DNA from: Thermanaeromonas sp.
GTDB taxonomy: Bacteria; Bacillota; DSM-521; Neomoorellales; Neomoorellaceae
Assembly (NCBI RefSeq): GCF_021890735.1
Contig: NZ_JAKKUR010000008.1
Span: 1 to 61,479 of the forward strand
Length of the DNA stretch: 61,479 nt
Direction: 5' to 3'
Shown here: piece by piece, positions 1-31,168 of the stretch
How positions within the stretch are numbered: position 1 is the first letter of the stretch
Layout of the letters: the number at the start of each line of letters is the position of its first letter
The notes under the pieces: generated by a model
What the model was told of the DNA's origin: nothing
The model's database searches: none
The model's input: only the letters and a program-made list of their open reading frames with translations
Translations under genes and position numbers: made by a program

Positions 1-206
1 CGGGGCAGATCCAGAACGTATGCCAACCCAATGCCATTCTAACTTTTAAAGAGTACCTCCTCGATTATGCTACTCCAGAGACACGTAAGGTAGGCGAGGA
101 AACTATAAGTAGGCATCTGGAGGAGATACCTAATGAAGCTGTTCGTAGTGAAACGCAGAGCAGGCTCAAGCGCCTGGAGGAGGGCGAGCGAGACCTCTAT
201 TTTTAA
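1..206 (+). CDS. hydG: [FeFe]-hydrogenase maturase HydG, C-terminal end (partial)
   Basis: The reading frame is open from the window edge and stops with TAA at 204-206, leaving 67 residues. It contains CQPNAILTFKEYLLDYA near its start and ends GERDLYF. Both are recognisable HydG features: the Cys (codon 21-23) fits the last ligand of the C-terminal CX2CX22C cluster motif, and the RDLYF end is typical. HydG is a radical-SAM enzyme that cleaves tyrosine to make the CO and CN- ligands of the H-cluster. The gene starts upstream of the window. Its position before a TM1266 regulator and hydE supports the call. Confidence 0.88.
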   Translation, partial: GQIQNVCQPNAILTFKEYLLDYATPETRKVGEETISRHLEEIPNEAVRSETQSRLKRLEEGERDLYF

Positions 207-264
207 GGGTTTAAATTCCCGGGCGGGAAAAACCTGAGGTTGGGCAAGGGGGAAGAACGAGCAG

Positions 265-513
265 ATGGAACGCAGGATCGGCGTTATAGGTATAGTTATA
301 GAAGACAGAGAGAAGGCGGCCTCCCGGGTCAATACCATCTTAAGCGAATATGGTGACTATATCGTCGGCCGTATGGGCATCCCTTATCGTGAGAGGGGAG
401 TCGCAGTTATCGCCCTGATCGTAGATGGAAGCACGGATGTTGTGGGGGCTCTTACGGGTAAGTTAGGAAGTTTACCGGGGGTTAAGGTCCGGGCGGCTCT
501 AACTGGGAAGTAA
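265..513 (+). CDS. TM1266-type iron-only hydrogenase system regulator
   Basis: An 82-residue protein with the pattern of the TM1266 family, small ACT/ferredoxin-fold proteins encoded among [FeFe]-hydrogenase maturation genes: an N-terminal beta strand (RIGVIGIVIED), a conserved ILSEYGDYIVGRMGIPYRERG segment (positions about 25-45), and a C-terminal LGSLPGVKVRAAL. The start is the ATG at 265, with a purine-rich site (AGGGGGAAG) about 10 nt upstream. The gene sits between hydG and hydE, probably in one transcript. The family is presumed to be regulatory from genomic context; no ligand or target is evident here. Confidence 0.85.
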   Translation: MERRIGVIGIVIEDREKAASRVNTILSEYGDYIVGRMGIPYRERGVAVIALIVDGSTDVVGALTGKLGSLPGVKVRAALTGK

Positions 514-560
514 GGGAAAAGCGAGGATATTCGTTTTTCTAAGGAACAGGAGGTGAAGTC

Positions 561-1625
561 TTGCGTAAAGAATTCGCCGATGCCCTATCGAGAATAGCCC
601 GCGGGGAGGAACCCGACAAAGCTTCCCTTGTAATCCTTCTTTCCGCTCAGCCTGGTGAAGAAGAGGAAGCCCTATACCGGGAAGCTGATACTTTACGAGC
701 TCAATATGTAGGTGACGAAGTACACCTGCGGGGGGTTATAGAATTCTCTAACCACTGCCGCCGGCTTTGCCATTATTGCGGGTTGCGCGCAGAGAACAAA
801 AACTTAAGGCGCTATCGCATGAAAAAAGAAGAGATCGTTGAGAGTGCCCGCCGGGCTTTGGAGCTGGGCTATGGCACGGTCGTGCTTCAGTCCGGAGAGG
901 ATACTTGGTATTCGGCGGAGATGCTAGCTGAAATAATAGCGGTCATTAAAGGTATGGGCCTTGCGGTTACCTTATGCGTAGGAGAGAGAGCACGAGAGGA
1001 ATATGCCCTCTGGCGGGAAGCTGGAGCCGACCGGTATCTCCTTAAGCATGAAACGGCGAACCCCCGGCTTTATCAGAAGCTTCATCCGGGTATGAGCTGG
1101 GAAGAACGGATAACTTGCCTGCAGTGGTTGCGGGAGCTAGGGTACCAGGTAGGCTCGGGCAATATTGTAGGCCTTCCAGGCCAAACCTTAGAAGATCTAG
1201 CCGAAGATCTCCTGCTTTTACGTAGCCTTGAGGTAGAGATGGCGGGCATAGGTCCCTTCATTCCTCATCCCAACACTCCCTTAGGAACCTATCCGGCGGG
1301 AAGCTTGGACTTAACTTACCGGGTATTGGCCGTGGCCCGGCTGGTTTTACCCTGGGCTCACCTGCCGGCTACAACAGCCGTGGGCACTTTGTCTCCTAAT
1401 GGCCGGCAGCTAGCCCTGCAGCGAGGAGCGAACGTAGTGATGCCCAACCTTACTCCCAGGCAATATCGTGCGGATTATCAGATTTATCCTGGCAAGATTT
1501 GTATTAATGAAGGGCCGGAAGACTGCCGCTATTGCCTGGAAGGGATGATACGGTCTTTGGGCCGGCGAGTTGGCAGGGGCCCTGGTCACAGTTTAAGGTA
1601 TTTGAGCCGGATAACAAAAAATTGA
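561..1625 (+). CDS. hydE: [FeFe]-hydrogenase maturase HydE (radical SAM)
   Basis: A 354-residue radical-SAM protein of normal HydE length. The SAM-cluster motif CX3CX2C is seen in CRRLCHYCG at about residues 68-76, followed by GYGTVVLQSGED and a C-terminal region with NEGPEDCRYCLEGM. HydE acts with HydF and HydG to build the di-iron subcluster of the [FeFe]-hydrogenase H-cluster; it processes the sulfur/cysteine-bound iron synthon made by HydG. The start is TTG at 561, placed by an AGGAGGTG ribosome site at 548-555. hydF is not in the window. Confidence 0.92.
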   Translation: MRKEFADALSRIARGEEPDKASLVILLSAQPGEEEEALYREADTLRAQYVGDEVHLRGVIEFSNHCRRLCHYCGLRAENKNLRRYRMKKEEIVESARRALELGYGTVVLQSGEDTWYSAEMLAEIIAVIKGMGLAVTLCVGERAREEYALWREAGADRYLLKHETANPRLYQKLHPGMSWEERITCLQWLRELGYQVGSGNIVGLPGQTLEDLAEDLLLLRSLEVEMAGIGPFIPHPNTPLGTYPAGSLDLTYRVLAVARLVLPWAHLPATTAVGTLSPNGRQLALQRGANVVMPNLTPRQYRADYQIYPGKICINEGPEDCRYCLEGMIRSLGRRVGRGPGHSLRYLSRITKN

Positions 1626-1629
1626 ATAT

Positions 1630-1651
1630 CAAAAAACCGAATAAAGTTGTC
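1630..1651 (+). promoter_or_regulatory. Candidate activator-binding element, copy 1 (22 nt)
   Basis: The pattern CAAAAAACCGAAT, four variable bases, then TTGTC occurs here and at 13362-13383 with identical spacing: 18 of 22 positions match. This copy follows directly on the hydE stop codon and lies about 60-80 bp upstream of a sigma-54-like promoter. Both position and repetition fit an upstream activating sequence for the sigma-54 activator at 11080-13359. The repeat is seen in the sequence; the binding role is inferred. Confidence 0.5.
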
Positions 1652-1707
1652 CGGAAAGTTGAATTACTAGTGGGATTTTTCTATTAAGAAGAAGGAGATT
1701 CCGAAAA

Positions 1708-1727
1708 GATGGCGAATATAGTGCAAT
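1708..1727 (+). promoter_or_regulatory. Candidate sigma-54 promoter of the hydrogenase operon
   Basis: A GG pair (1711-1712) and a GC pair (1723-1724) are separated by exactly 10 nt, as sigma-54 -24/-12 promoters require. The -24 box reads TGGCGA and the -12 box GTGCAA, so the match outside the invariant GG/GC pairs is moderate. Initiation would fall near 1735, about 55 nt before the first gene. Support comes from the 22-nt element upstream, the Rex-like palindrome over the start site, and a sigma-54 activator gene in the same locus. Confidence 0.4.
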
Positions 1728-1743
1728 GTGAATGAGTTCACAG
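1726..1743 (+). promoter_or_regulatory. Rex-type operator
   Basis: ATGTGAATGAGTTCACAG contains the perfect inverted repeat TGTGAA-N4-TTCACA. Compared with the Rex consensus TTGTGAA-N4-TTCACAA, 12 of the 14 half-site bases agree. Rex is the NADH/NAD+-responsive repressor that in many Clostridia controls hydrogenase and fermentation genes. The site lies over the predicted start of transcription, where a bound repressor would block initiation. No rex gene is in the window. Confidence 0.6.
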
Positions 1744-1790
1744 TCACCTAAACACAACGGTCCCGGGGGACCTGCGAGGTGTAAACATTT

Positions 1791-2228
1791 CTGGAGTTTA
1801 CTTTTAAGGTTCAGGGCCGTAATTTTCACGCTGCCGGTGATGGTGCAAGTAGGCTGAAACACATCCTGCAGCAGGTGGGTTTCCCGCCTGAGCTTGTGAG
1901 GAGAGTAACTATTGCAGCCTTCGAAGCGGAAATGAATATTATTATACACGCCTATAGAGGTGAACTGAAGGTCGATATTTTGCCTGAAAAAATCGTAGTG
2001 ATAGCCGAGGACGAAGGCCCGGGTATTCCAGATATTGAACTGGCCATGCAGGAAGGGTATTCTACAGCACCGCCCGAGGTAAGGGAGATGGGTTTCGGTG
2101 CGGGGATGGGCCTTCCCAATATAAAGAGGTGCTCTGACAGGTTAGAAATCAAATCTGAAGTAGGTAGGGGGACGTTTTTACAGGCGGAGTTTTATCCTCG
2201 GGTTATGGAAGGGAAGATTATGGGGTAG
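1791..2228 (+). CDS. Histidine-kinase-like ATPase (RsbW/anti-sigma-type), probable CTG start
   Basis: A GHKL-fold ATP-binding protein of about 145 residues with N-box EAEMNIIIHA, G1 box DEGPGIPD and G2 box FGAGMGLPNIKR. It has no dimerisation or phosphoacceptor domain, so it resembles serine kinases/anti-sigma factors more than sensor kinases. The first ATG (1875) would remove the conserved N-terminal strand-helix. The frame is open back to 1785 and offers no ATG, GTG or TTG there, but has CTG at 1791 preceded, at 9-nt spacing, by GAGGTG (1776-1781). CTG is therefore the most likely start. It is the first gene of the hydrogenase operon. Its partner is unknown; a role in transmitting the state of the neighbouring hydrogenase-like sensor is inferred. 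Confidence 0.75.
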   Translation: MEFTFKVQGRNFHAAGDGASRLKHILQQVGFPPELVRRVTIAAFEAEMNIIIHAYRGELKVDILPEKIVVIAEDEGPGIPDIELAMQEGYSTAPPEVREMGFGAGMGLPNIKRCSDRLEIKSEVGRGTFLQAEFYPRVMEGKIMG

Positions 2229-2250
2229 GGGAAGGTAAGGTGCCTTAAAA

Positions 2251-3570
2251 TTGAAGTATTTTCATTCTGTGCATTTAGAGCGGGATAAATGCAAGGGTTG
2301 TACTAATTGCATAAAGCGTTGCCCTACTGAGGCTATCCGGGTGAGGGAAGGTAAGGCCCGCATAATAGAAGAGAGATGTATAGATTGCGGTGAATGTATA
2401 AGGGTCTGTCCCAATCATGCTAAGGTGGCGGTGGGGGATAAGTTAGAGAGATTACAGGATTTCGAGTACACCATCGCCCTTCCGGCTCCTTCCTTTTACT
2501 CCCAGTTTGACCCGGCTAACGGCATACCGCGGCTACTAGGAGCTTTGCTCAAGTTAGGTTTTAACGCTGTATTTGAAGTGGCATTGGCTGCAGAGGCGGT
2601 ATCATGGGCTACGAGGCGCTTTCTAGAAGAGTATGATGGTCCGCGGCCCCTTATTTCTGCGGCCTGCCCGGCGGTAGTGAGTTTAATCGAGGTACGCTTT
2701 CCTTCTTTGATAAACCAGGTTATTCCCGTGGAACCGCCGGTTAATGTGGCTGCTAGAATAGCGCGGGAACAAGCTGTAAGGTCTACGGGGCTGCCTCCTT
2801 CCAAGATCGGCATCTTCTTTTTGTCGCCTTGCCCGGCCAAGATTACGGCCGTCCGCCAGGCTAAAGCCAGGGAAGAAAGTTTGGCTGATGGCAGTATCCC
2901 TATCATGGATATATACGGTGAATGTCTGGATGCTCTTAAAAGTGCTGACCAGGTCCTTCCTCTGGCGGGGAGCCAAGGTGTGGGGTGGGGGCGCACAGGC
3001 GGGGAGAACGAAGCACTGGGCTACGGGCGGCTGTTAGAAGTGGATGGTATTCACCATGTCATTAAAGTGCTAGAGGCCGTAGAGAAGGGAGAGCTGAAGC
3101 AGTTCGATTATATAGAAGCCCAAGCGTGCCCCGGAGGATGTGTAGGCGGGCCGTTGATGGTAAGGAATCCCTTTGAAGCGCGGAAGATACTAGATTTTCT
3201 GCGCCGGAGTTTAACAAGCCGCGACATAGAAAGTGAAGAAATAAGAAATTTGGCGGAAAGAGGTAGGTGGCGGAGCAGGTGGCGGCCTGAACCCCGTCCG
3301 GCCTTGCGCCTGGACGAAGATATAGCTTGTGCTCTTGTGAAAATGCAGCAATTGGAGGAGACGGCCAGGCTCCTTCCGGGGCTTGATTGTGGCGCCTGTG
3401 GATCTCCTAACTGCCGGGCGCTGGCAGAGGATATAGTGAGGGGGCAGGCTTCAGATACCGACTGCATCTTTCTGTTGAGGGAACGTGTCCGCGTGCTGGC
3501 GGAAGAAGTGGTGGAACTGGCCAGGAAACTGCCACCTCCTTTGGCCGAACCTGAAAGGAGCAGCAAGTAA
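2251..3570 (+). CDS. Sensory-type [FeFe]-hydrogenase homologue with C-terminal Fes domain
   Basis: A 439-residue iron-sulfur protein, TTG start with AAGGTG 8 nt upstream. Two [4Fe-4S] ferredoxin motifs lie at about residues 14-24 and 43-53. An H-cluster-like domain follows (about 70-320), then a Fes-type motif (DCGACGSPNC, about 375). The H-cluster signatures are altered: L1 reads SAACPAVV where catalytic enzymes have TSC(C/S)PGW, L2 is SPCPAKITA and lacks the usual Glu, and L3 is ACPGGCVGGP. The four cluster-binding cysteines remain, but the proton-transfer Cys is Ala. This pattern fits a sensor or low-activity enzyme rather than a turnover hydrogenase (inference). It lies between an ATPase and a DRTGG gene in the hydABC operon. 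Confidence 0.8.
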   Translation: MKYFHSVHLERDKCKGCTNCIKRCPTEAIRVREGKARIIEERCIDCGECIRVCPNHAKVAVGDKLERLQDFEYTIALPAPSFYSQFDPANGIPRLLGALLKLGFNAVFEVALAAEAVSWATRRFLEEYDGPRPLISAACPAVVSLIEVRFPSLINQVIPVEPPVNVAARIAREQAVRSTGLPPSKIGIFFLSPCPAKITAVRQAKAREESLADGSIPIMDIYGECLDALKSADQVLPLAGSQGVGWGRTGGENEALGYGRLLEVDGIHHVIKVLEAVEKGELKQFDYIEAQACPGGCVGGPLMVRNPFEARKILDFLRRSLTSRDIESEEIRNLAERGRWRSRWRPEPRPALRLDEDIACALVKMQQLEETARLLPGLDCGACGSPNCRALAEDIVRGQASDTDCIFLLRERVRVLAEEVVELARKLPPPLAEPERSSK

Positions 3571-3912
3571 ATGACCGTAGGCGAGATAGCCTCTAATCTG
3601 GGTTTAAAGGTGATAGCCGGGCATAAAGGCTTAGGGCGGGAAGTTACCACCGGGTACGCTGCTGACCTTTTAAGCGATGTCATCGCCCATGCACCCCAGG
3701 GCTGTCTGTGGTTTACTCTGCAGACGCACGAGAACGTGGTAGCCGTAGCCTTGCTTATCGATGCTGCAGGAATAGTTATTACGGGAGGGCGCAAGCCGGA
3801 AGAAGCTACGTGCAAGCGAGCAGAAAAGGAGGGCATCCCACTTCTTAGTAGCCCGGAGAACACCTTTGTTCTCGGGGGCAAGCTCTATGCGCTTCTTATG
3901 GGTCAGAGATGA
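3571..3912 (+). CDS. DRTGG-domain protein
   Basis: A 113-residue single-domain protein of the DRTGG family, the small domain also found linked to CBS domains and in BioD-like/Pta proteins. The fold is suggested by TVGEIASNLGLKVIAG at the N-terminus, GCLWFTLQTHENVVAVA in the middle and AAGIVITGGRKPEE near residue 70. Its ATG follows immediately on the preceding stop, and its stop overlaps the next ATG (ATGA), so translation is coupled. Such proteins recur beside HydABC genes and lone ATPases in Clostridia. Their ligand is unknown. Confidence 0.75.
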   Translation: MTVGEIASNLGLKVIAGHKGLGREVTTGYAADLLSDVIAHAPQGCLWFTLQTHENVVAVALLIDAAGIVITGGRKPEEATCKRAEKEGIPLLSSPENTFVLGGKLYALLMGQR

Positions 3913-4682
3913 GGGGGTTTATAGGAGACCTGCATATCCATACCGCTCTGTCGCCTTGTGCCGGGGAGCAAATGACGCCTCCTGCTATTGTGGCCCAAGC
4001 CCTTAAAGCCGGACTAGATTTTATCGCCGTTACCGATCACAACAGCGCCGGCAATGTAGAGGCAGTTATGGAGGCTGCACGGGGTACCATCTTAAAAGTA
4101 TGGCCCGGCTTAGAGGTCCAAACCAAAGAAGAAGTACATTTGGTTTGCCTTTTTGACAGCGTAGAAACGGCTTTGGCCTGGCAGGATGTGGTTTACAGGC
4201 ACCTGCCGCCGGGTGAAAACATAGAGAACATTTGGGGAACCCAGCTGTTGCTGGACGCCCGGGGAAAAGAAAGGGGTAGGGAAAAACGGCTTCTTCTGCA
4301 GAGCACCAGCCTTAGTATAGAAGAAGTGTTTCGGGGGGTGAGCCTTCTTGAGGGGATAGTAATACCTGCCCACGTGGATAGGCAAGCGTATAGTTTACTT
4401 AATGTGCTAGGTTTTATCCCCCCGGGTTTGCCTATAACAGCACTAGAGGTGAGCCGGGCGGAGAACCTGGAAAGGATAAGAAGCCGCACATCGTTGCCCC
4501 AAGGCTTTTCCTTGATAGCCTCTTCCGATGCTCATTATTTGGAGGATATAGGGCAGCTTGCTACCTGTTTCTGTATGCACGAGTTGACCTTCTCAGAGCT
4601 GCGTTTAGCCCTGGCCGGTGAAGGAGGACGAAAGGTGGTGATGGTTCAAGGGGCCGGTGGATATTTCAGAGTAGTAGAGTAA
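3909..4682 (+). CDS. PHP-domain metal-dependent phosphoesterase
   Basis: A 257-residue PHP-family hydrolase. Metal ligands are visible in order: GDLHIHTALSPC (His 8 and 10), VTDHNSAGN (about 42-50), the Glu in WPGLEVQT, PAHVDR (about 155) and SSDAHY (about 205). The family hydrolyses phosphoesters using two or three metal ions. The start overlaps the DRTGG stop by 4 nt. Its place among hydrogenase subunits and ATPases suggests it turns over a phosphorylated signal or nucleotide connected to hydrogenase control (inference). Confidence 0.82.
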   Translation: MRGFIGDLHIHTALSPCAGEQMTPPAIVAQALKAGLDFIAVTDHNSAGNVEAVMEAARGTILKVWPGLEVQTKEEVHLVCLFDSVETALAWQDVVYRHLPPGENIENIWGTQLLLDARGKERGREKRLLLQSTSLSIEEVFRGVSLLEGIVIPAHVDRQAYSLLNVLGFIPPGLPITALEVSRAENLERIRSRTSLPQGFSLIASSDAHYLEDIGQLATCFCMHELTFSELRLALAGEGGRKVVMVQGAGGYFRVVE

Positions 4683-4729
4683 CCCGTTCAATATTTGGTC
4701 CAAAGTCCGAGGAGGTGCAAGAAACCGAC

Positions 4730-5203
4730 ATGGAAGCTTGCAAATGCGAAGAAAAATGGGAACAGCTTAATGAAATTATCAAGGCTCACCGCGGCCAGCC
4801 TTCTAGCCTTATTGAGGTATTGCATAAGGCTCAGGAGCTTATCGGTTATCTCCCTAAACAGGTGCTTATAGCCATAGCTGAAGGGTTGGGCGTATCCTTA
4901 AGCGAGGTTTATAGTGTAGTATCCTTTTATGCCTACTTTACTACTAAACCCAAAGGCAAATATCAGATCTCCTTGTGCAAGGGTACGGCTTGTTATGTTA
5001 AGGGTGCTCCGGAGATCCTGGAACGCTTGGAAAAAGAGCTGGGTATTAAAGCTGGCGATAGCACCGATGATGGTAGGTTTTCCTTGGAAGTCGTTCGCTG
5101 TTTGGGAGCCTGCGGTCTGGCTCCGGTGATGATGGTGAACAAGAGGGCTTACGGTCTTTTGAGGCCGGATAAAGCCGTGGCCGTGCTCCAGACCTATCAA
5201 TGA
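4730..5203 (+). CDS. hydC: HydC: NuoE-like [2Fe-2S] subunit of the NAD-linked hydrogenase
   Basis: A 157-residue thioredoxin-like [2Fe-2S] protein of the NuoE/HydC family. The four ligands appear as CKGTAC and CLGAC, separated by about 36 residues, with the family sequence LGVSLSEVYSVVSFYAYF before them. With HydB and HydA it forms the cytoplasmic NAD-dependent, typically electron-bifurcating [FeFe]-hydrogenase. ATG 4730 is preferred over GTG 4715, because the latter lies inside the GGAGGTG ribosome site at 4711-4717; the spacing to ATG, 12 nt, is long. The stop overlaps the next ATG. Confidence 0.88.
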   Translation: MEACKCEEKWEQLNEIIKAHRGQPSSLIEVLHKAQELIGYLPKQVLIAIAEGLGVSLSEVYSVVSFYAYFTTKPKGKYQISLCKGTACYVKGAPEILERLEKELGIKAGDSTDDGRFSLEVVRCLGACGLAPVMMVNKRAYGLLRPDKAVAVLQTYQ

Positions 5204-5751
5204 TGGAAGAACTAGCCCTGCATATCTTAGATATAATGGAAAATTCCCTGGCCGCCGGTGCGAGTTTATTAGAATTGACGATTTTAGAAGATCCGGTGGC
5301 CAACCGGATGATTATTGAGTTAACAGACAACGGTAGGGGGATGAGTGAAAAGGAAAGGCAGGCAGCACTGGATCCGTTTTTTACAAGCCGTACTACCAGG
5401 CGGGTAGGATTAGGGTTATCCCTTCTTAGAGCAACAGCCGAGCAGTGTGGAGGAAGCTTAACTTTAGTTTCTCAACCAGGTAAGGGGACCCGGGTAGTGG
5501 TCACTCTGGAGTTAAATCATATAGACCGCCCACCCCTGGGCGATATGGGGGCCACCATAGCTTCAATCTTAAGCAGGGAGGATCCGCCCGAGGTTTACTA
5601 TTACCACCAGAGAGGCAAAGAAGCCTTTGAGTTTTCTACCTCCTGGCTAAAGGAACAGTTAGGGGATATACCTGTTAATCTAGCACCGGTCCTAAAGTGG
5701 GTTCAGAGTCACATAGATGAAGGGTTAAAGGCTTTATATGGGGGTGAATAG
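5200..5751 (+). CDS. Histidine-kinase-like ATPase, second copy in operon
   Basis: A 183-residue GHKL ATPase starting at ATG 5200, which overlaps the hydC stop (ATGA). The N-box is ILDIMENSLAAGA, the G1 box TDNGRGM and the G2 box RRVGLGLSLL, with GTRVVVTLEL closing the fold at about residue 105. The C-terminal 75 residues are not recognisable. There is no phosphoacceptor histidine domain. It differs from the first ATPase (1791-2228), so the two are not a recent duplication. Such lone ATPases commonly accompany Clostridia hydABC genes; the function is unknown, and kinase activity towards a partner in the operon is plausible. Confidence 0.75.
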   Translation: MMEELALHILDIMENSLAAGASLLELTILEDPVANRMIIELTDNGRGMSEKERQAALDPFFTSRTTRRVGLGLSLLRATAEQCGGSLTLVSQPGKGTRVVVTLELNHIDRPPLGDMGATIASILSREDPPEVYYYHQRGKEAFEFSTSWLKEQLGDIPVNLAPVLKWVQSHIDEGLKALYGGE

Positions 5752-5756
5752 GGTTT

Positions 5757-6116
5757 ATGAAGTCCGTGGAAGACCTGCTTAAACTAAAGAAAGAGATTCA
5801 AGAATCCATTGCCCTACGTGAAGGAGGAGACAAGATCAAAGTTGTTGTAGGTATGGGTACCTGCGGTATAGCGGCCGGAGCCCGGGAAGTTATGTCTGCC
5901 CTGCTGGATGAGCTGGCTAAACGCCGGCTGACGAATGTAGTGGTTACTCAGACAGGCTGTATAGGATTGTGCGCACAAGAACCGCTGGTAGATGTGTTTG
6001 TACCGGGCAAGCCGCGGGTCACCTATGGCAAGGTGGATGCACAAAAGGCCCGCCAGATTGTAGCCCAGCATATAGTTAATGGGATCGTAATAAACGAATG
6101 GGTAGTAAATAAGTAG
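5757..6116 (+). CDS. Thioredoxin-like [2Fe-2S] ferredoxin
   Basis: A 119-residue protein of the shethna/NuoE-like thioredoxin-fold ferredoxin family, with cysteines in VGMGTCGIAAGARE (about residue 39) and QTGCIGLCAQEPLVDV (about 73-77). Similar domains form the N-terminus of HydB proteins, and the following HydB carries its own copy. It lies directly between the second ATPase and hydB in the operon. A role as an electron carrier or extra subunit of the HydABC complex is inferred. Confidence 0.8.
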   Translation: MKSVEDLLKLKKEIQESIALREGGDKIKVVVGMGTCGIAAGAREVMSALLDELAKRRLTNVVVTQTGCIGLCAQEPLVDVFVPGKPRVTYGKVDAQKARQIVAQHIVNGIVINEWVVNK

Positions 6117-6143
6117 CCGTTGGCCATAGGGAGGGGGATGAAG

Positions 6144-9100
6144 ATGGAATTCTATCGCGCCCATGTTCTTATATGTGCTGGTACGGGATGCACGGCTTCC
6201 GAGAGCCAGGCGACCAGAGAAGCCCTGGTAAAGGAGTTAATGGCCCGGGGTTTGGATAAGGAGATAAAGGTAGTGGAGACGGGCTGCTTCGGTTTTTGCC
6301 GTTTTGGCCCCAATATGATGGTCTATCCCGAAGGGGTATTCTACTGTACCGTACGGCCCGAGGATGTGCCGGAACTTGTGGAAGAGCATTTTATAAAGGG
6401 CCGGATAGTGGAGCGCTTGCTTTACAAGCAGCCGGAAACCGAGGCTGCGGTCTCTTCCTTTGAAGAGATACCCTTCTTCAAACACCAGCTCCGTATTGCT
6501 TTACGCAACTGCGGGGTGATTAACCCGGAATCCATCGAAGAATACATCGCCCGCGATGGATATTTGGCTCTGGCTAAAGTATTGACCGAGATGAAACCGG
6601 AAGAGGTTATAGACATAATTAAAAAATCCGGCCTTAGGGGGCGAGGCGGCGGAGGGTTCCCAACGGGGCTAAAATGGGAATTCGCCTACCGTTCTCCGGG
6701 ACCTGTAAAGTACGTCGTATGTAACGCAGACGAAGGAGATCCGGGGGCTTTCATGGACCGGAGCATCTTGGAAGGCGATCCCCATGCTGTACTGGAAGGG
6801 ATGGCCATTGCCGGATATGCCATTGGCGCAAACCAAGGATATATTTACGTGCGGGCAGAATATCCCATCGCGGTGCACCGCCTTAAAATCGCCATCAGCC
6901 AAGCGCGAGAAAAGGGTCTCTTAGGCAAAAACCTGTTTAATTCGGGCTTTGATTTTGATATAGACATCAGGCTTGGAGCAGGCGCCTTCGTATGTGGAGA
7001 AGAGACAGCGCTTTTGGCCTCCATTGAGGGGCGCAGGGGTGAACCGCGACCGAGGCCTCCTTTCCCCGCCGTGTCGGGCTTGTGGGGCAAGCCCACAGTT
7101 ATCAATAATGTAGAGACCCTGGCTAATGTACCTACTATCATTCGCAACGGCTGGGAATGGTTTGCCTCTATCGGTACGGAAAAGAGCAAGGGCACCAAGG
7201 TTTTCGCCCTGGCTGGCAAGATAAACAATAACGGGCTGGTTGAGGTGCCCATGGGCACCACCTTGGGCGAGGTAATCTACGATATCGGTGGCGGTATACC
7301 CGGCGGTAAAAAGTTTAAGGCCGCCCAGACGGGAGGCCCTTCAGGCGGGTGCATCCCCGCTGAGCACCTTAATGTGCCCATCGATTACGAATCCCTTACT
7401 GCCTTGGGAACTATCATGGGTTCCGGCGGCCTCATCATAATGGATGAGGATACTTGCATGGTGGACTTGGCCAAATTCTTCCTGGAGTTTGTTAAGGATG
7501 AATCCTGCGGTAAGTGCACCCCTTGCCGTATCGGCACTACCCGGATGTTGGAGATACTGGACCGTATAACCAAGGGGCAGGGCCGGGAAGGAGATATTGA
7601 ACTTCTTATTGAACTGGGGCAGCAGATTAAGGATACCGCCCTCTGCGGCCTGGGCCAGACGGCTCCGAATCCAGTGCTCAGCACCATAAGGTATTTCCGG
7701 GACGAGTATGAAGCCCATATCAGGGATAAACGCTGCCCGGCCTCTGTGTGCGCGGCACTTTTCCATTCACCTTGCCAGAATACCTGCCCGGCCAATGTAG
7801 ATGTGCCCATTTATATCGACCTTATCCGCCAGGGCCGTTTTGCTGAAGCCTACGAGGTGATCCGGCGGGAGAACCCCTTCCCTGTAGTGTGTGGCCGTGT
7901 CTGCCATCATCCCTGTGAAGGCAAATGCAACCGGGCCAAGATGGATCAAGCCGTGGCTATAAGGGAGCTTAAGAGGTTTGCCGCGGACTACGCCTTGTCT
8001 TTAAATGGACAGCGGCCAAGACCCGTAGTTTCTCCTGCTAATGGGAAGAAGGTGGCCGTTGTCGGTGCGGGCCCGGCGGGGCTCACGGCAGCTTATTACC
8101 TGGCCTTAAAGGGTTACGCAGTTACTGTTTTTGAGGCTCTACCGGTGGCCGGAGGTATGATGGCCGTAGGTATTCCCGAATACCGGCTGCCCAAGAAGAC
8201 CTTGGCCCAGGAGATTGAGACCATTACGGAGCTGGGTGTAGAAATCCGGACCAATAAGGCTTTGGGCCGCGACTTTACCCTGGAGGACCTGAAGAAAGAG
8301 GGTTACCAGGCCGTCTTCCTTGCCGTCGGTGCCCATAAGGATCTTAAGCTCGGCATCCCGGGAGAGGAGCTTTCGGGAGTTTATTCCGGGGTAACCTTCC
8401 TGCGGGAGCTTAACTTAGGGCGTCCCGTGGATGTAAAGGATAAGGTGGTAGCGGTTATCGGTGGCGGAAATGTGGCTATGGATGCGGCCCGCTCGGCTAA
8501 ACGCCTGGGGGCTAGAGAAGTACACGTTATCTACCGGCGCACTAAAGAAGACATGCCCGCCATACGGGAAGAGATCCGTGAAGCAGAAAGGGAAGGGATT
8601 AAGATTACCTGCCTGGCGGCACCGGTAGCCATTCTGGGTGAAGCCGGGCGCGTGAAGGCTTTAAGGTGTGCCAAGATGCGTCCCGGGGATTTTGATAAGA
8701 GTGGCCGGCGCCGGCCTGTGCCTGTTGAAGGCGGGGAGTTTACTTTAGACGTGGATGTGGTTGTTGCGGCTATTGGCCAGACCGTGGAGAAGGAGGCCTT
8801 GCCCGGGGACCTCGAACTCAGCCCTGCGGGGACCATTGTAGCCGACGAAAAAACTTTGGCTACTAACCTACCCGGCGTCTTTGCGGGGGGAGATTGCGTG
8901 AGCGGCCCAGACACAGTAATCACGGCTATTGCTGCGGGCAAAAAAGCTGCAGCAGCCATCGATAAATACCTGGGCGGTGACGGTATAGTAATGCCGCAGG
9001 TCCAGGTGGAACGTAAGCGTACGGCACCGGTCATCGAGGAGAAAACCGAGCGAGTAAAGGTTCCCACCCTGCCAGTGGAAGAGCGGCTTAAAGGTTTTGC

Positions 9101-9179
9101 CGAGGTTGAACTGGGTTATAGTCCAGAACAGGCCATGGCTGAGGCGGCTCGGTGCTTGCGCTGCGACGTACGGGAATAG
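6144..9179 (+). CDS. hydB: HydB (NuoF-like) fused to a GltD/NfnB-like NAD(P)H oxidoreductase
   Basis: A 1011-residue fusion. Residues 1-95 are a thioredoxin-like [2Fe-2S] domain (CAGTGC, CFGFC). Residues about 110-540 are a NuoF module with [13 protein letters not shown] and [10 protein letters not shown] for FMN/NADH and the [4Fe-4S] ligands CGKCTPCR. HydB normally ends in a two-cluster ferredoxin domain. Here, after KRCPASVC, a complete GltD-like module of about 465 residues follows: cysteines in CQNTCPANV and [13 protein letters not shown], an FAD loop [12 protein letters not shown], an NAD(P) loop [12 protein letters not shown], and [11 protein letters not shown]. The enzyme may therefore connect H2 with two pyridine-nucleotide sites. 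ATG 6144 is chosen because GGGAGGGGG lies 6 nt upstream. The frame is uninterrupted across the junction. Confidence 0.87.
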
Positions 9180-9211
9180 CTTGTAAGCCAAAGGACGGGA
9201 GGCGAATAAGG

Positions 9212-10933
9212 ATGAGCATGGTTTCAGTGACTATTGATAATGTAAAGGTAGAGGTCGAAGCCGGCACTACTATTTTAAAAGCCGCAGAGAAGGCCGGTAT
9301 CCACATCCCTACCTTATGCTATCTGGAAGGTATTAACGAGATAGGTGCCTGCCGTGTATGTGTGGTAGAAGTAGAAGGGGCACGTAATTTGGCGGCTGCT
9401 TGTGTAACGCCAGTTTCCGACGGCATGGTAGTCCGCACCAATACCCCGCGGGTGCGGGCTGCCCGCCGCCTAAACGTGGAGCTTTTGCTTTCCAATCATA
9501 AGATGGAGTGCCCGACTTGCATCCGCAACCTGAATTGTGAGCTGCAAACGCTGGCGCAAACTTTAGGGATACGGGAGGTCCGCTTTGAGGGCAAAAGAAC
9601 AACGTACCAGGCTGATACGTCTACTCCAGCCCTTGTGCGCGATCCCGAAAAATGTATCCTCTGCCGCCGCTGTGTCGCAGTATGCGAAAAGGTGCAGACT
9701 GTTAAGGCCATCGCACCCCAAGAGAGGGGTTTCGAAACAGTCATCGCCCCGGCTTTTCACGAAAAACTTATTAACGTGGCCTGCGTAGAGTGCGGCCAGT
9801 GCATCCTGGTATGTCCGGTGGGAGCTTTGTATGAAAAGGATTATACCGAAGAAGTTTGGGAAGCACTGGCCGACCCGGAGAAATTCGTGGTAGTTCAGAC
9901 GGCTCCTGCTACCAGGGTGTCCATCGGGCAAGAGTTCGGCTATCCGCCCGGTGCCATCACCACGGGTAAAATGGTGGCGGCCTTAAGGCGTTTAGGGTTC
10001 GATCGTGTTTTCGATACCGACTTTTCAGCGGACCTTACCATTATGGAAGAAGGTAGCGAATTTATAGAGCGGTTTAAAAAAGGAGAGAGACTGCCCCTTC
10101 TCACCTCTTGTAGTCCGGGCTGGATCAAGTTTATCGAGCACTTTTACCCCGAGCTTTTGCCGCATTTATCCACCTGTAAATCCCCACAGCAAATGTTCGG
10201 CGCGGTAGCGAAAACCTATTATGCCCAAAAGGTAGGTATAGATCCGTCCCGGATGGTAGTGGTGTCTATAATGCCCTGCACGGCCAAAAAATTCGAAGCG
10301 CAGCGGCCTGAAATGAAGGACAGCGGATACCAAGATGTGGATTACGTTCTTACCACCCGGGAGCTTGCCCGGATGATCAAAGAGGCGGGTATCGATTTTC
10401 AGAGCCTGCCGGAAGAAGACTATGATGACCCATTGGGCGAGTCCACCGGTGCGGCTGTGCTTTTTGGAACCACCGGTGGTGTGATGGAAGCTGCCCTGCG
10501 TACGGCTTACGAGCTGATGACGGGGAAAGAGCTGCCGAGGTTGGAGTTCCATGAGGTGCGGGGTCTAAAGGGTATTAAGGAAGCCACCATTGATATTGAA
10601 GGTACCCCGGTACGGGTGGCGGTAGCCCATGGCCTGGGCCACGCCCGGGAACTCTTAGAACGGGTCAAAGCAGGGGAAAAATACCACTTTATCGAGATCA
10701 TGTGCTGCCCCGGTGGGTGTATTGGCGGCGGAGGGCAGCCTATTCCTACGAACGAGGAAATTAGGGCTCAGCGCATGGCAGGTATTTACAGCGCTGATGA
10801 GCGTATGGTAATACGTAAATCCCACGAGAATCCTTCTATTAAAGCCCTGTACCGGGAGTTTTTGGGTCATCCTTTAAGCGAGAGATCCCACCAACTGTTG
10901 CATACCCATTATACGCCGCGGGGTAAGTATTAA
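9212..10933 (+). CDS. hydA: HydA, catalytic [FeFe]-hydrogenase subunit
   Basis: A 573-residue catalytic subunit. In order it has a [2Fe-2S] domain (CYLEGINEIGACRVC), a His-ligated [4Fe-4S] motif (HKMECPTCIRNLNC), two [4Fe-4S] motifs (CILCRRCVAVC and CVECGQCILVC) and the H-cluster domain with L1 TSCSPGW, L2 MPCTAKKFE and L3 MCCPGGCIGG. TSCSPGW, with Ser in place of the second Cys of TSCCPGW-type enzymes, is usual in NAD-linked bifurcating hydrogenases. The start is ATG 9212, with GGGAGG about 9 nt upstream. Last gene of the operon, closed by a terminator at 10956. Confidence 0.93.
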   Translation: MSMVSVTIDNVKVEVEAGTTILKAAEKAGIHIPTLCYLEGINEIGACRVCVVEVEGARNLAAACVTPVSDGMVVRTNTPRVRAARRLNVELLLSNHKMECPTCIRNLNCELQTLAQTLGIREVRFEGKRTTYQADTSTPALVRDPEKCILCRRCVAVCEKVQTVKAIAPQERGFETVIAPAFHEKLINVACVECGQCILVCPVGALYEKDYTEEVWEALADPEKFVVVQTAPATRVSIGQEFGYPPGAITTGKMVAALRRLGFDRVFDTDFSADLTIMEEGSEFIERFKKGERLPLLTSCSPGWIKFIEHFYPELLPHLSTCKSPQQMFGAVAKTYYAQKVGIDPSRMVVVSIMPCTAKKFEAQRPEMKDSGYQDVDYVLTTRELARMIKEAGIDFQSLPEEDYDDPLGESTGAAVLFGTTGGVMEAALRTAYELMTGKELPRLEFHEVRGLKGIKEATIDIEGTPVRVAVAHGLGHARELLERVKAGEKYHFIEIMCCPGGCIGGGGQPIPTNEEIRAQRMAGIYSADERMVIRKSHENPSIKALYREFLGHPLSERSHQLLHTHYTPRGKY

Positions 10934-10955
10934 ACCCTTTGGGTTGGACAGTTTC

Positions 10956-10993
10956 AAGGGGAAGCGCTTTTTTAACGAAGCTTCCCCTTTTTT
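10956..10993 (+). terminator. Intrinsic terminator after hydA
   Basis: A perfect 10-bp stem, AAGGGGAAGC at 10956-10965 and GCTTCCCCTT at 10980-10989, is followed by a run of T. It ends the hydrogenase operon and separates it from the regulator gene at 11080. Confidence 0.9.
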
Positions 10994-11012
10994 GTTTTTA
11001 TGGTTCAAATTT

Positions 11013-11045
11013 TTGACTTCCCGGGAGCCGAACTTATGTTATAAT
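11013..11045 (+). promoter_or_regulatory. Sigma-A-type promoter of the sensor-activator gene
   Basis: TTGACT (11013-11018) is followed by overlapping -10 candidates TATGTT (11035-11040, 16-nt spacer) and TATAAT (11040-11045, 21-nt spacer). A palindromic CCCGGG lies in the spacer. The regulator therefore appears to have its own housekeeping promoter, independent of the operon upstream. Confidence 0.6.
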
Positions 11046-11079
11046 ACTTGAGGGAACAAAAAGGGGGGATATTTTACTG

Positions 11080-13359
11080 GTGAGTGGCATAGTGAGAACA
11101 ATCACAGGAAAATGCCGCATGTGCTATGCGTGTGTCCGTAACTGCCCGGTAAAGGCTATTAGGGTGGTGGACGGGCAAGCCCAGGTTGTGCCCGAGCGCT
11201 GCATCGCTTGCGGATATTGCGTACGTGTCTGCTCACAGCAGGCTAAGATGATAGAAAGTGAAATAGAGATAGTTAAAGAGTTTTTAGAACACGAAAAGAC
11301 GGTAGCTTGCCTTGCGCCCTCCTTTGTGGCCGAGTTTCACCCTGCCTGGCCCGGGCAGGTGGCCTGCGCTTTGCGTAAATTAGGTTTTTATGAGGTGCAT
11401 GAGGTGGCCTTCGGCGCCTATCTTGTAACCCAAGAATACCTCAGATTCTTAAAGGAGGTCGGCGAAAGCCAGGGGTTCATCAGCACCCCCTGTCCTGCCG
11501 TAGTTAATCTAGTCCAAAAATATTTCCCCCGCCTTATTCCCCGGCTTGTTCCCATTGTTTCTCCTGCCGTGGCCTTGGGGCGCTATCTAAAAAAGAAGCT
11601 GGGCCCCGGAATTAAAGTGGTATTTATAGGGCCCTGTGTGGCCAAGAAGGACGAAGCCAGGGCTGAAGAAGTAGCGGGAGCCATAGATGCCGTTTTGACC
11701 TACCCGGAACTAAAACAGATGCTTCAAGAGAAAGGAATAGAGGTAACCTCTGTAGAAGACGAAGGATTTGATAATCCTAAGCCCGAACTGGGACGCCTGT
11801 ATCCTATTGGCGGGGGACTTTTGCGCAGTGCGGGTATGATGGCGGATATACTAGAAAGCAGGTTGCTGGTCATTGAGGGCCGAGATGACTGCTTGGAATT
11901 CCTTAAAGCGGCTAATGAAGGTAAAATGGTACCACAGCTCGTAGATATGCTGTTCTGCAAAGGCTGTATTGAAGGCCCCATGATGCAAAATGAGTATTCT
12001 TCCTTCCGGCGAAGGCGTATAGTAGCCGAGTTTACCCGGGAGGGTCTGGCTTTAGGTGAACAGGGTAAAACCGGTGGCCGCGAGGATCTGGCTGTTTACC
12101 TCAACGGGGTTAACTTGCGACGTGAATTCCGGGATGAGAGGGTACATCTGCCGCAGCCCAGCGAAGCTGAAATTCGGGCTATCATGGCCGAGCTGGGTAA
12201 AATGGGGCCGGAAGATGAACTAAATTGCGGTGCCTGCGGGTATTCTTCCTGCCGGGAGAAGGCTATAGCTGTATATCAAGGGCTGGCTGAGAATGAGATG
12301 TGCCTGCCTTATTTAATCCTACAGTTACAGAAGAGCAATCTCCGGCTCAAGCAAGAGCTTAACACGGTACGCAAGCAGTTCGGCGATATTGTAGGCAAGA
12401 GCTTAGCCATGCAAGAAGTGTACAGGTTAATCGAGAAGGTGGCTCCGACCGATGCTACAGTCCTTATACGTGGCGAAAGCGGTACCGGAAAGGAGCTAGT
12501 AGCACGGGCCATCCATTACCGGAGCTTGCGTAGCGATGGCCCCTTTATAAGTATTAACTGTGCGGCCCTCCCCGAGACGCTGTTGGAAAGCGAACTTTTC
12601 GGGCACGCTAAGGGGGCCTTTACCGGTGCCGTTACCAGCAAGCGCGGCCTCTTTGAGGAAGCGCACCAGGGCACTTTGTTCCTAGATGAAATAGGAGATA
12701 TAAGCTTGGGGTTGCAGAGTAAACTTTTAAGAGTCTTGCAGGAAGGAGAGTTTATACGGGTAGGAGAGACCAGGCCGCGAAAGGTTGACGTGCGGGTAAT
12801 TGCAGCCACTAACCGGGATCTGGAGAAGGCCATCAAAGAGGGGTCCTTCCGGCCGGAGCTTTTCTATCGGCTGAATGTAGTCACTATTTGGTTACCTCCG
12901 TTGCGGGAGAGGCGGGATGACATTCCCTTGCTGGCCAGGCATTTCCTCCAGAGGGCTTGCCAGCGGCTCGGCAAGGAGATTAAAGGATTTACGGCCGAGG
13001 CTATGGACGCTTTAGTTCGGGCCGACTGGCCGGGGAATGTGAGGGAGCTGGAGAACGTCGTGGAACGGGCCGCCATCCTTTGTGAGGGGGATAAGATAGA
13101 GCTGGGAGACCTCCCCCGGGAAATCCGCAACCGCGCTGCCAATGCTACGGGCTGGGCCTACACCAAGGGTATGACCTTTAGAGAGGCCGTACAGGCCTAC
13201 GAGGTCCAATTGCTTCTTAAGGCTTTAGAAGAGAGTAAATGGGTTCAGGCGCGTGCGGCTGAAATTTTGGGACTAAAGCGGAGCACTTTGAATGAGATGC
13301 TCAAGCGGTACCGGATCTCTCCCAAAATGGTCAAGATGTATTCGGAAAACCGGATGTAA
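11080..13359 (+). CDS. [FeFe]-hydrogenase-like sensor fused to a sigma-54-dependent transcription activator
   Basis: A 759-residue protein. Residues 1-60 hold two [4Fe-4S] motifs ([22 protein letters not shown]). About 65-310 is an H-cluster-like domain with L1 [10 protein letters not shown]2 GPCVAKKDE and a shortened L3 FCKGCIEGP. About 375-415 is a Fes motif ([10 protein letters not shown]). After a short helical linker (about 418-440) comes the AAA+ domain: GESGTGKE (Walker A), GAFTGA (the sigma-54 contact loop) and GTLFLDEI (Walker B). A Fis-type helix-turn-helix ends the protein ([18 protein letters not shown]). The proton-transfer Cys of L1 is Pro, so sensing of H2 or redox state rather than catalysis is inferred. 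Starts at GTG 11080 with GGGGGG upstream. Probable targets are the promoters near 1708 and 13523. Confidence 0.88.
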
Positions 13360-13361
13360 TA

Positions 13362-13383
13362 CAAAAAACCGAATCCCATTGTC
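13362..13383 (+). promoter_or_regulatory. Candidate activator-binding element, copy 2 (22 nt)
   Basis: Second copy of CAAAAAACCGAAT-N4-TTGTC, as at 1630-1651. It starts just past the stop codon of the sigma-54 activator and about 140 bp upstream of the strong sigma-54 promoter match. ATTCGG at 13340-13345 and CCGAAT at 13369-13374 form an inverted repeat that would suit a dimeric Fis-type helix-turn-helix. Binding is inferred. Confidence 0.5.
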
Positions 13384-13455
13384 ACGTCCTACGTGGGAAC
13401 AACAAACGCCACCTTGGCTTGGTGGGGCGGTTTCAAAATATTGAACACCCCGTTT

Positions 13456-13494
13456 AGTGGGCCGGCTAGTTTAAGTGCAGCCGGCCCACTTTGT
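13456..13494 (+). terminator. Intrinsic terminator after the activator gene
   Basis: AGTGGGCCGGCT (13456-13467) and AGCCGGCCCACT (13479-13490) form a perfect 12-bp stem with an 11-nt loop, followed by TTTGTTT. ACCCC and GGGGT further out can extend the pairing. It should stop transcripts of the activator before the sigma-54 promoter at 13523. Confidence 0.88.
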
Positions 13495-13522
13495 TTGGGG
13501 TATCACAGACTTGGCGTCCGCT

Positions 13523-13540
13523 TTGGCATGATTCTTGCTA
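13523..13540 (+). promoter_or_regulatory. Sigma-54 promoter
   Basis: TTGGCATGATTCTTGCTA matches the sigma-54 consensus YTGGCACGRNNNTTGCW at every fixed position except one (C to T in the -24 box), with GG and GC exactly 10 nt apart. Transcription would begin near 13550. It lies downstream of a terminator and of the 22-nt element, so it appears to serve the short transcript that ends at about 14015. Confidence 0.72.
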
Positions 13541-13578
13541 ATAAAAAGGGTTGTAGAAACGTAAAGTACGAAGATGGC

Positions 13579-13596
13579 TAGAGAAAAGGTTCACAA
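13579..13596 (+). promoter_or_regulatory. Rex-like box downstream of the sigma-54 promoter
   Basis: TAGAGAA-N4-TTCACAA agrees with the Rex consensus at 12 of 14 half-site positions: the right half is perfect and the left half has two mismatches. It lies about 30 nt after the predicted start of transcription, a roadblock position. It is weaker as a palindrome than the site at 1726, but its presence after another 22-nt element and sigma-54 promoter adds weight. Confidence 0.35.
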
Positions 13597-13785
13597 TTCT
13601 GTTCGTCCTGCGTTTTCTACCTTTCGAAGTCAAAATATTGCATTTGGGCGATGGCAATTCTAAATGTAATAAAAAATATGCTAAAATAGAGATACCGAGC
13701 ACCTAGAGGGGAAGGGTTTGCTTTAGGGAGGGTACTTTAGAGGTTTGAGTAAAAGGACATTATATATTTTTGGAAAGGGGGCAGG

Positions 13786-13950
13786 ATGTTTATGGAGGAT
13801 TTGTTGCTCAAACTTACAGAGCTGAATGAGGCCTACGGGCGGCTCGACGAAGAGTATAACTTGTTTCGCTCAAACTGGGAGTGGTTTGTATCAGAAAACA
13901 GTTCGAAAAACCCAGTATATAATATATTGGAAAAGGTAGAGCAAAATTAG
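13786..13950 (+). CDS. Small hypothetical protein, 54 residues
   Basis: ATG at 13786 follows GGAAAGGGGG at suitable spacing and gives 54 residues beginning MFMEDLLLKLTELNEAYGRL and ending NILEKVEQN. The product is acidic and soluble, probably helical, with an aromatic patch (NWEWF, about 30-34). No family was recognised. It is the only ORF with a good ribosome site in the transcript between the sigma-54 promoter (13523) and the terminator (13993), so it may be a small effector controlled by the hydrogenase-like sensor. A non-coding role for the transcript cannot be excluded. Confidence 0.5.
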   Translation: MFMEDLLLKLTELNEAYGRLDEEYNLFRSNWEWFVSENSSKNPVYNILEKVEQN

Positions 13951-13992
13951 ATTAAGCGAAGATAAATCAGGCAAGATATACTAAGAAGTTTC

Positions 13993-14018
13993 AAAGCGCG
14001 GTTTTACGCGCTTTTTCG
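13993..14018 (+). terminator. Intrinsic terminator of the small transcript
   Basis: AAGCGCG, a short loop (GTTTTA) and CGCGCTT followed by TTTCGTTTTT form a compact terminator about 45 nt after the 54-codon ORF. Confidence 0.85.
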
Positions 14019-14139
14019 TTTTTGGGGAGGTATTTGATGAAAGTCTTGAAGGCAAAGTTTAAGCTGGCTAAAGAAATAATTTATGTGTGGTAAAATAAAA
14101 GACTAGATACTTTATTACGTACTAAGGAGAGATACCGTT

Positions 14140-16635: not shown

Positions 16636-16682
16636 AAAATCATAGAAGTGATTTGAGGGAAAGAGCATGGAGGAATAGCAGC

Positions 16683-19055: not shown

Positions 19056-19064
19056 GTTTAGGCT

Positions 19065-29289: not shown

Positions 29290-29871
29290 ATGAAATCTAG
29301 CTACCGGCGTTTTTTATTGGTGCTTGCAGGCTTGATAATTGTAGGAGTGTTTACGTTATGGGGGCCAGCCGGTCTGCGAATAGCAAAAGAAACTTTACAG
29401 GATACCCCTTGGCAGGTGCCGGTCTGGGCTTTACCCCAGTTCTTACGGCCTGAGCCGCGTATTGAAAAGCTTTATCAGGCTTGCGGCCACCGGGAAGAAA
29501 TACCTTTACCAGAAGAAGTAAACTTAAGGTGGATAGGTAAAAAGGAGCTGGAGATCCTTTTCCCCCCTCAAGAGGGATGGGAGATTTACCCAGAACAAAA
29601 CGGTCGCTTAGTCATTACGCAGAAGGTTCCGGGATTATGCCCGCAGGATGCTCCTAAGCGACATCTGGCCGAATTGGACGGAAGGGTGGCCGTATACCGG
29701 GGGCCTACAGGAAGTATGGGAGACCTGGAAAGGGTTTTAGATATAAGGATGGAGACTTTGCCCCGGGAATGGCAGGAGCGTATCCGCCAGGGCCGGGCTG
29801 AATTCCGGTCCGAGGAAGAACTGTTGAAGGCGCTGGACAGTCTAGAAGAATATTCAGCAGATGCGTGGTAA
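29290..29871 (+). CDS. bofC: BofC-like forespore signalling protein
   Basis: A 193-residue protein with an N-terminal signal/anchor (about 8-28), a conserved ACGHREE segment (about 64-70) and the BofC C-terminal domain: HLAELDGRVAVYRGP, then FRSEEELLKALDSLEEYSAD. In Bacillus, BofC lies in the intermembrane space and restrains SpoIVB signalling that activates pro-sigma-K. The neighbours support the call (yebC upstream; ruvCAB would normally follow). Its 3' end overlaps the convergent hypE remnant by 18 nt. Confidence 0.8.
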   Translation: MKSSYRRFLLVLAGLIIVGVFTLWGPAGLRIAKETLQDTPWQVPVWALPQFLRPEPRIEKLYQACGHREEIPLPEEVNLRWIGKKELEILFPPQEGWEIYPEQNGRLVITQKVPGLCPQDAPKRHLAELDGRVAVYRGPTGSMGDLERVLDIRMETLPREWQERIRQGRAEFRSEEELLKALDSLEEYSADAW

Positions 29872-30609: not shown

Positions 30610-31168
30610 TTAAACCGGGAGCCACCTGCGGCGCGAGGTTTGTGTCCGGCCTTTGGTGCAGAAGCACTATGGGAGCCGCAGGGGAGGATAGAAGAGCTTC
30701 TTCTTGTTCGGTCACGAAGCAATATTGTTTCACTGTGTCTAGGTCCCGGGCCATAACGGCAAAGGGTTTACTCGAACGCCTTTTGCGCAGGCGGAGGAGA
30801 CTGACAGCATGAGCATTTGTCGCATCGCAAGCCAAGTGGAACCCGCTCAAATCTTTTATGGCTAAAATATAACCTTCTCTTAAAAGTTGTGAGGATTTTT
30901 CGAGCCAGTCGCCGGTTACCGGCTGGCCTTTGTTGTCTAGGAGCTCTACATGTGGTCCGCAAGAAGGACAGGCTACGGGTTGGGCGTGAAAGCGCCGGTT
31001 GGTAGGGTCATCATATTCAGTGGCACACTTCGGACATAGGGCAAAAGGAGCCATGGCCGTACGGAAACCTACGCCCTGCACTACACCCCAGATGTTTACA
31101 CGGAAGCGGCGGCGGGGACGGCACTTGTCTTCTTGAAGGATACCTGCTGTTTCAGCCATGCACACCAC
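30602..31168 (-). pseudogene. hypF: hypF remnant with internal and terminal deletions
   Basis: HypF makes the thiocarboxamide used for CN ligands. This fragment starts like HypF (RRRFRVNIWGVVQGVGFR, acylphosphatase domain) but jumps in frame to the second zinc finger (CPKCATEYDDPTNRRFHAQP, CPSCGP), losing roughly 90-100 residues. It then has part of the YrdC domain (LREGYILAIKDLSGFHLACD, RKRRSSKPFAVMARD) and breaks off after LAPQVAPGLST, where hypE sequence begins in another frame. More than half of the usual 750 residues is gone. Confidence 0.8.

Follow-up and report, generated by a model that had tools for sequence, protein, structure and literature searches.

A predicted sigma-H promoter with a Rex operator and an upstream dyad array before an NAD-linked [FeFe]-hydrogenase operon in the Moorella family

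The hydrogenase operon and its Rex operator

The DNA analysed here, a stretch of 61,479 nucleotides (hereafter the window), makes up contig C44 in a draft genome of the Moorella family; that genome measures 2.13 Mb in 142 contigs. A gene encoding HydE (561–1625) lies directly before a hydrogenase operon on the forward strand (1791–10933), the open reading frames (ORFs) of which we assigned using Pfam and NCBIfam. Genes 1–4 encode a HATPase, an Fe-S/hydrogenase-like protein, a DRTGG protein and a PHP protein; genes 5–9 encode a NuoE-like protein, a second HATPase, a 2Fe-2S ferredoxin, a NuoF–GltD-like fusion and the group A6 [FeFe] hydrogenase HydA. Against NF040763, which NCBIfam assigns to NADH-dependent [FeFe] hydrogenases of group A6, HydA scored 954 bits (cut-off 765). 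In the fusion protein (6120–9179, 1,019 amino acids), the NuoF-like hydrogenase subunit is joined to a GltD-type NAD(P)-binding domain. The operon of the window's genus is without the first DRTGG gene. Rfam gave no matches in window positions 1–20000. Further along, a HypE-like ORF and a much shortened HypF-like ORF of about 205 amino acids (29854–31168) adjoin a transposase-like ORF (31808–33166), and the NiFe-hydrogenase maturation genes may be degraded there.

The relatives available for comparison are few and share common ancestry: one genome of the same genus (G016), the genus G003 and several Moorella. G016 is the nearest relative with the operon, and its HydA is 88% identical. We compared 11 loci for the promoter and the dyad array described below, namely the window's own, G016, G003 and eight of Moorella type, and used a wider set of 80 loci from named genomes for the regions upstream of the operon.

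A Rex palindrome had been noticed before the operon in an earlier reading made from the sequence alone (the sequence-only reading), and this held up well. The candidate operator, ATGTGAATGAGTTCACAG, occupies 1726–1743 on the forward strand, just 3' of, or over, the predicted transcription start, with the 16-mer TGTGAATGAGTTCACA at 1727–1742. Compared with TTGTGAAN4TTCACAA, it has two mismatches, both at the outermost bases, and the 12 inner palindrome bases are perfect; the site is also a palindrome of the TTGTGA-N6-TCACAA type. The 25 bases around it, AATGTGAATGAGTTCACAGTCACCT, are identical ahead of the G016 operon, where the neighbouring spacer has diverged. The operator is likewise conserved ahead of the orthologous operon in the Moorella loci examined, as TTGTGAA-N4-TTCACCA directly 5' of the first gene, and G003 has a TGTGA-N6-TCACA variant, TGTGAGCTTAATCACA, at the matching place. 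Outside the family, a box within two mismatches was found at 10 of 75 loci.

The genome encodes a single Rex, identified by a match to PF06971 and by 321 bits against NF003993 (cut-off 217). A genome-wide scan for the Rex pattern with up to three mismatches showed no enrichment. In Caldicellulosiruptor bescii, a gel shift supports Rex control of the Hyd hydrogenase system (PMC6391272). Comparison with the relatives confirms the predicted Rex box as genuine, the ordinary and sound part of our finding. The sequence-only reading had called Rex the strongest part of the region and placed it over the start site; our results support both points, with the box lying over or beside the predicted start in the window. 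We discarded a second Rex-like site at 13579, of which G016 keeps a half-site alone and which is absent from Moorella.

The promoter of the operon

Aligning the relatives brought out two blocks at constant spacing, AGGARA and GGCGAAT. In the window they belong to a predicted sigma-H promoter, GAAGGAGAT-N11-GGCGAAT, at 1691–1717 on the forward strand, in which AGGA (1693–1696) and GAAT (1714–1717) are both exact and stand 17 nt apart. We took RnAGGAwWW-N11-RnnGAAT as the SigH promoter consensus. The window's site departs from it by one mismatch, in the W positions of the −35 element, and a site with zero or one mismatch lies at the same place in all 11 Moorella-family loci. A SigH-type promoter precedes the operon at 8 of 8 family loci, compared with 2 of 75 outside the family. 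The start predicted from this promoter, at about 1724–1726, would touch the Rex box at its left edge. In Moorella (L051–L057), the Rex box directly precedes the first gene, approximately 120–150 nt 3' of the SigH start predicted there; unlike in Moorella, the box abuts the start site in the window's genus.

A gene for SigH, recognized by TIGR02859 above its cut-off, is present in all 18 family genomes searched. Across the window's genome, AGGAWWW-N11/12-RNNGAAT occurs at 79 sites, compared with 24 for a reversed control. Reading the translations behind these matches to name the genes, we found promoters of a D-Ala-D-Ala carboxypeptidase gene, dnaG, rex and rpoN among them. The first of these we take, by resemblance, to be dacF-spoIIA, a known sigma-H target; dnaG-sigA is another known target, and dnaG stands ahead of sigA in related bacteria. 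The SigH-type promoters of rex (L197, G000:C37:8035-8059) and rpoN (L201, G000:C41:49864-49888) are perfect, so SigH may sit above both genes.

According to passages of a transcript-start study in the acetogen Sporomusa, 16% of sigma-factor motifs were assigned to SigH, the SigH promoters mapped there have AGGA and GAAT 17–18 nt apart, and such sites are predicted in M. thermoacetica (PMC12456013). Taken together, the alignment and the consensus match fit a sigma-H promoter for the operon, not a sigma-54 promoter.

A sigma-54 promoter is what the sequence-only reading had assigned to the operon, at a GG-N10-GC pair (1711–1724, forward strand). One form of this idea, in which an activator bound to the upstream repeat would drive a sigma-54 promoter at 1710–1725 under Rex gating, can draw on several observations: GG (1711–1712) and GC (1723–1724) are literally present, RpoN is encoded in the genome, and both an activator gene and activator-type dyads exist. 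However, the pair has mismatches to TGGCACGN4TTGCW at 4 of the 12 specified positions, equally good matches number 105 in the window, G016 reads AG and GA at these places, and no GG-N10-GC pair with up to three mismatches was found in this region in any relative. The sigma-54 consensus is matched perfectly at nine sites elsewhere in the genome, and the pair overlaps the −10 element of the sigma-H promoter, of which its GG forms part. Because the box is no better than chance, is unconserved and shares its bases with a sigma-H promoter that is itself kept at all 11 loci, we reject it and consider a Rex-gated sigma-54 promoter at this position very improbable. Conservation of both boxes in relatives had been set beforehand as a test of the proposal: the Rex box is conserved and the sigma-54 box is not. 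A sigma-70 pair picked out by eye 5' of the sigma-H promoter, TTGAAT-N17-TATTAA, is not retained in G016 and was also dropped. In the literature, we found no paper that combines Moorella, hydrogenase and sigma-54.

Operator dyads at the operon and at the activator locus

The sequence-only reading also assumed a sigma-54 activator in this locus. Such a gene lies downstream of the operon on the forward strand (11080–13359) and encodes, according to Pfam, ferredoxin, Fe_hyd_lg_C, FeS, sigma-54 AAA+ and Fis-type helix-turn-helix (HTH) domains, the second giving the protein a hydrogenase-like part. The sigma-54 interaction domain carries GAFTGA, which is conserved in the orthologues together with the HTH; the gene is found in 13 of 18 family genomes. 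The hydrogenase-like domain retains cysteines in TPCPAV, GPCVAK and FCKGC. The last of these is a CxxC motif, one residue shorter than the CxxxC of catalytic [FeFe] hydrogenases, so the domain is only a candidate for holding an H-cluster.

Beyond the activator gene lies an array of 14-bp dyads of the form TNCRR-N4-YYGNA (13341–13445, forward strand; dyads at 13341, 13360 and 13432), which we refer to as upstream activating sequences (UASs). It is followed by a true sigma-54 promoter, TGGCATGATTCTTGCT (13524–13539, forward strand), with zero mismatches to TGGCAYRN4TTGCW. The dyads begin 183, 164 and 92 bp before this promoter in the window and approximately 170, 151 and 95 bp before it in Moorella. 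At the 13 loci with activator orthologues, tandem dyads follow the stop codon, usually with a third further on, and the 13 downstream regions contain 37 dyads with no more than one mismatch, compared with 10 expected from shuffled sequence. A perfect sigma-54 site occupies the corresponding place in 12 of these 13 loci. None of the genome's other eight perfect sigma-54 sites has a comparable dyad array. A further dyad, TTCAAATTTTTGAC (11004–11017, forward strand), lies 5' of the activator's own TATAAT promoter; it has the same sequence and place in G016, and dyad-like sites precede this promoter in several orthologous Moorella loci.

A small ORF of 54 amino acids 3' of the sigma-54 promoter (13786–13950, forward strand) aligns with conserved counterparts in the family and has no match in Pfam or NCBIfam. 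The whole layout from 13341 to 13950, with three dyads, the sigma-54 promoter and the small ORF, is retained in 12 of 13 orthologous loci. A conserved second promoter resembling TGnTAAAAT lies before the small ORF. In Moorella (L138–L147), a conserved, dyad-like stretch beginning GTACAAAAAACCGTTC lies about 30 nt 3' of the sigma-54 promoter.

The same dyad motif recurs ahead of the hydrogenase operon. The sequence-only reading had pointed there to a 22-nt repeat as an activator-type element, with copies at 1630–1651 and 13362–13383 that have an exact 13-mer in common. As a bare two-copy repeat this is near chance, since we estimate that a 14-kb stretch should contain about 1.5 exact 13-mer pairs, and we do not retain the exact 22-nt sequence as a unit: it combines a single dyad with a shared TTGTC and is lost in G016. 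The idea of an activator-type element nonetheless survives in another form, in that each copy contains one dyad of a conserved array common to the operon and the activator locus.

The dyad motif was first spotted with the hydrogenase sites in view; the weight matrix that we then scanned over the hydrogenase upstream regions left those sites out and was trained on activator-linked dyads alone. Three dyads on the forward strand make up the array. UAS2, TCCGGAAAGTTGAA (1650–1663), is a full match to TNCRRN4YYGNA, for which 0.017 occurrences are expected in shuffles of the region, and its matrix score ranks 9 among 61,466 window positions. From its start to the start of the sigma-H promoter the distance is exactly 41 bp in 11 of 11 loci, and it is the best-scoring site of the region in 10 of them; between the window and G016, the stretch separating the two has largely diverged and the spacing is retained. 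UAS1, ATCAAAAAACCGAA (1628–1641), forms the core of the 22-nt repeat and lies 22 bp from UAS2 in the window, G016 and Moorella, and 21 bp in G003. Its score in the window is low (5.8), in contrast to the strong UAS2, and is higher in Moorella and G003. The outermost dyad, UAS0 or AACAAAAAATTGAA (1613–1626), overlaps the hydE stop codon and has a matrix score of 9.5; G016 and several relatives have a dyad-like site 15–16 bp 5' of UAS1, and of the three dyads this one is the least conserved.

We tested 20 further SigH promoters of this genome and found no dyad at the −41 offset at any of them. G001 has the operon and is without the activator gene, the dyad array and the SigH promoter; it is the one negative genome for the co-occurrence of activator and dyads. 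A genome-wide search with the tandem UAS pattern gave 7 sites compared with 6 in the control, the pattern being too degenerate for this purpose. Spo0A boxes, with the half-site TGTCGAA, do not account for the dyads, the half-sites of which mismatch it.

The activator HTH is invariant among the orthologues, and two paralogues have a different HTH and no dyads. The dyads precede a sigma-54 promoter at 13341–13445 but not at the hydrogenase operon. On the simplest reading of these comparisons, the activator would bind the dyads at all three places. A different regulator, such as a class I activator of the Crp/Fnr family that also acts at the activator locus, would spare us a sigma-54 activator working with SigH. 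The form and rigid spacing of the dyads also suit such a protein: with 14 bp, a 4-bp spacer and centres near −68 and −90, they resemble what we take to be Crp/Fnr class I positions. Yet next to the activator gene the dyads form clusters 5' of a sigma-54 promoter at 13 loci, they also occur at the activator's own promoter, and the HTH does not vary among orthologues, which makes another regulator unlikely in our view.

A model of the control region and related systems

The compact, multi-input control region anticipated by the sequence-only reading is supported by the Rex box, the conserved promoter and the spaced dyads. Comparison of the loci demonstrates the candidate Rex site, the sigma-H-type promoter and the dyad array with their spacing, whereas the identity of the protein on the dyads, along with the direction of its effect and the way it acts, is our inference. 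In our preferred model, which we consider fairly probable, Rex represses a sigma-H promoter and the activator encoded at 11080–13359 binds an array 5' of it, with an effect that is likely to be positive.

SigH polymerase would use the promoter at 1691–1717 to start the NAD-linked [FeFe]-hydrogenase operon near 1724–1726. Rex on 1726–1743 would block initiation or early elongation at low NADH/NAD+ and depart as NADH rises; repression at a low ratio and release at a high one is the well-known mechanism of Rex, which we carry over to this site. The activator would bind the three dyads centred at approximately −105, −90 and −68, and would also bind beside its own gene and 5' of the 13524–13539 sigma-54 promoter. 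Its effect on the hydrogenase promoter would most likely be positive, exerted through contact at a set distance and not by remodelling a sigma-54 polymerase; direct contact and activation are favoured because the upstream spacing is fixed. The signal detected by its hydrogenase-like domain may be H2 or the redox state. An AND gate is possible, in which SigH is present, Rex is released by NADH and the upstream regulator adds its input.

From established biology, an activator of the sigma-54 type is not expected to help sigma-H polymerase. As this class normally acts only on sigma-54 polymerase, the activator's effect at the hydrogenase promoter is the weak point of the model, which could be mistaken about the protein on the dyads or about how it acts. 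The activator might instead bind the array and repress, holding the promoter inactive or looped together with Rex until released by a signal. Regulators of the sigma-54 type can act negatively at promoters that do not use sigma-54, and the dyad-like sites near the −35 region of the activator gene suggest autorepression. At the operon, however, the array lies 5' of the sigma-H core promoter, not over it, and at a fixed offset, an arrangement commoner for activation; we regard repression as rather unlikely, although it and a different dyad-binding protein are both serious rivals to the model. Returning to the Rex-repressed sigma-H promoter with a bound array, we suggest tentatively, with the balance leaning against it, that a AAA+ regulator of the sigma-54 type, equipped with a sensor domain of the H-cluster type, might from a fixed place upstream directly control the sigma-H promoter of a hydrogenase operon that Rex also governs.

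If that is true, a protein that remodels sigma-54 polymerase would also regulate the promoter of another sigma factor according to H2 or redox state. The locus provides a concrete test case for a sigma-54-type activator at a promoter without sigma-54. A single NAD-linked hydrogenase promoter would take inputs from SigH, from NADH/NAD+ through Rex and from a probable H2 or redox regulator, in a family that includes the model acetogen Moorella. Control by SigH, which was recently put forward for the energy genes of acetogens, would thereby extend to a bifurcating-type hydrogenase.

One of the genome's other Rex sites with two mismatches, TTGTGACGAATTTCACTA, is found on contig C16 (L007, G000:C16:2714-2731), where it overlaps AGGAGAATCGGATGTTGTGACGAAT, a promoter of the SigH type. 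Next comes an ORF that we read from its translation as presumably CooC-like, followed by one that is presumably CO-dehydrogenase-like. Since the site precedes these ORFs, the Wood-Ljungdahl operon is probably a target of Rex as well, and as this apparent cooC-acs operon also shows the overlap, the pairing of SigH and Rex may recur as a circuit.

The hydrogenase-type domain of HydS in Thermotoga maritima is probably sensory (PMC10055695), as we presume for the activator, although the domain is fused here to sigma-54 AAA+ and HTH domains and not to PAS, and H2 sensing is putative. The array beside the activator gene resembles a sigma-54 activator UAS in its several dyads approximately 90–185 bp 5' of a perfect sigma-54 promoter, whereas the second array precedes a sigma-H promoter without a sigma-54 box. 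Passages on the Sporomusa sphaeroides KIAC SigH regulon describe AGGA-17 nt-GAAT on energy and Wood-Ljungdahl genes, as in the window, and those passages mention neither the Moorella bifurcating hydrogenase operon nor, in combination with SigH, Rex or an activator array upstream (PMC12456013). As in Rex-controlled clostridial [FeFe] hydrogenases such as C. bescii hyd (PMC6391272), a Rex palindrome lies just 5' of an NAD-linked operon in a genome with one Rex gene; by contrast with hyd, the window's box lies at the start of a predicted sigma-H promoter and is joined by an extra upstream operator array. A Rex box alone is ordinary; the combination of Rex, sigma-H and an operator array is a new variation on known themes.
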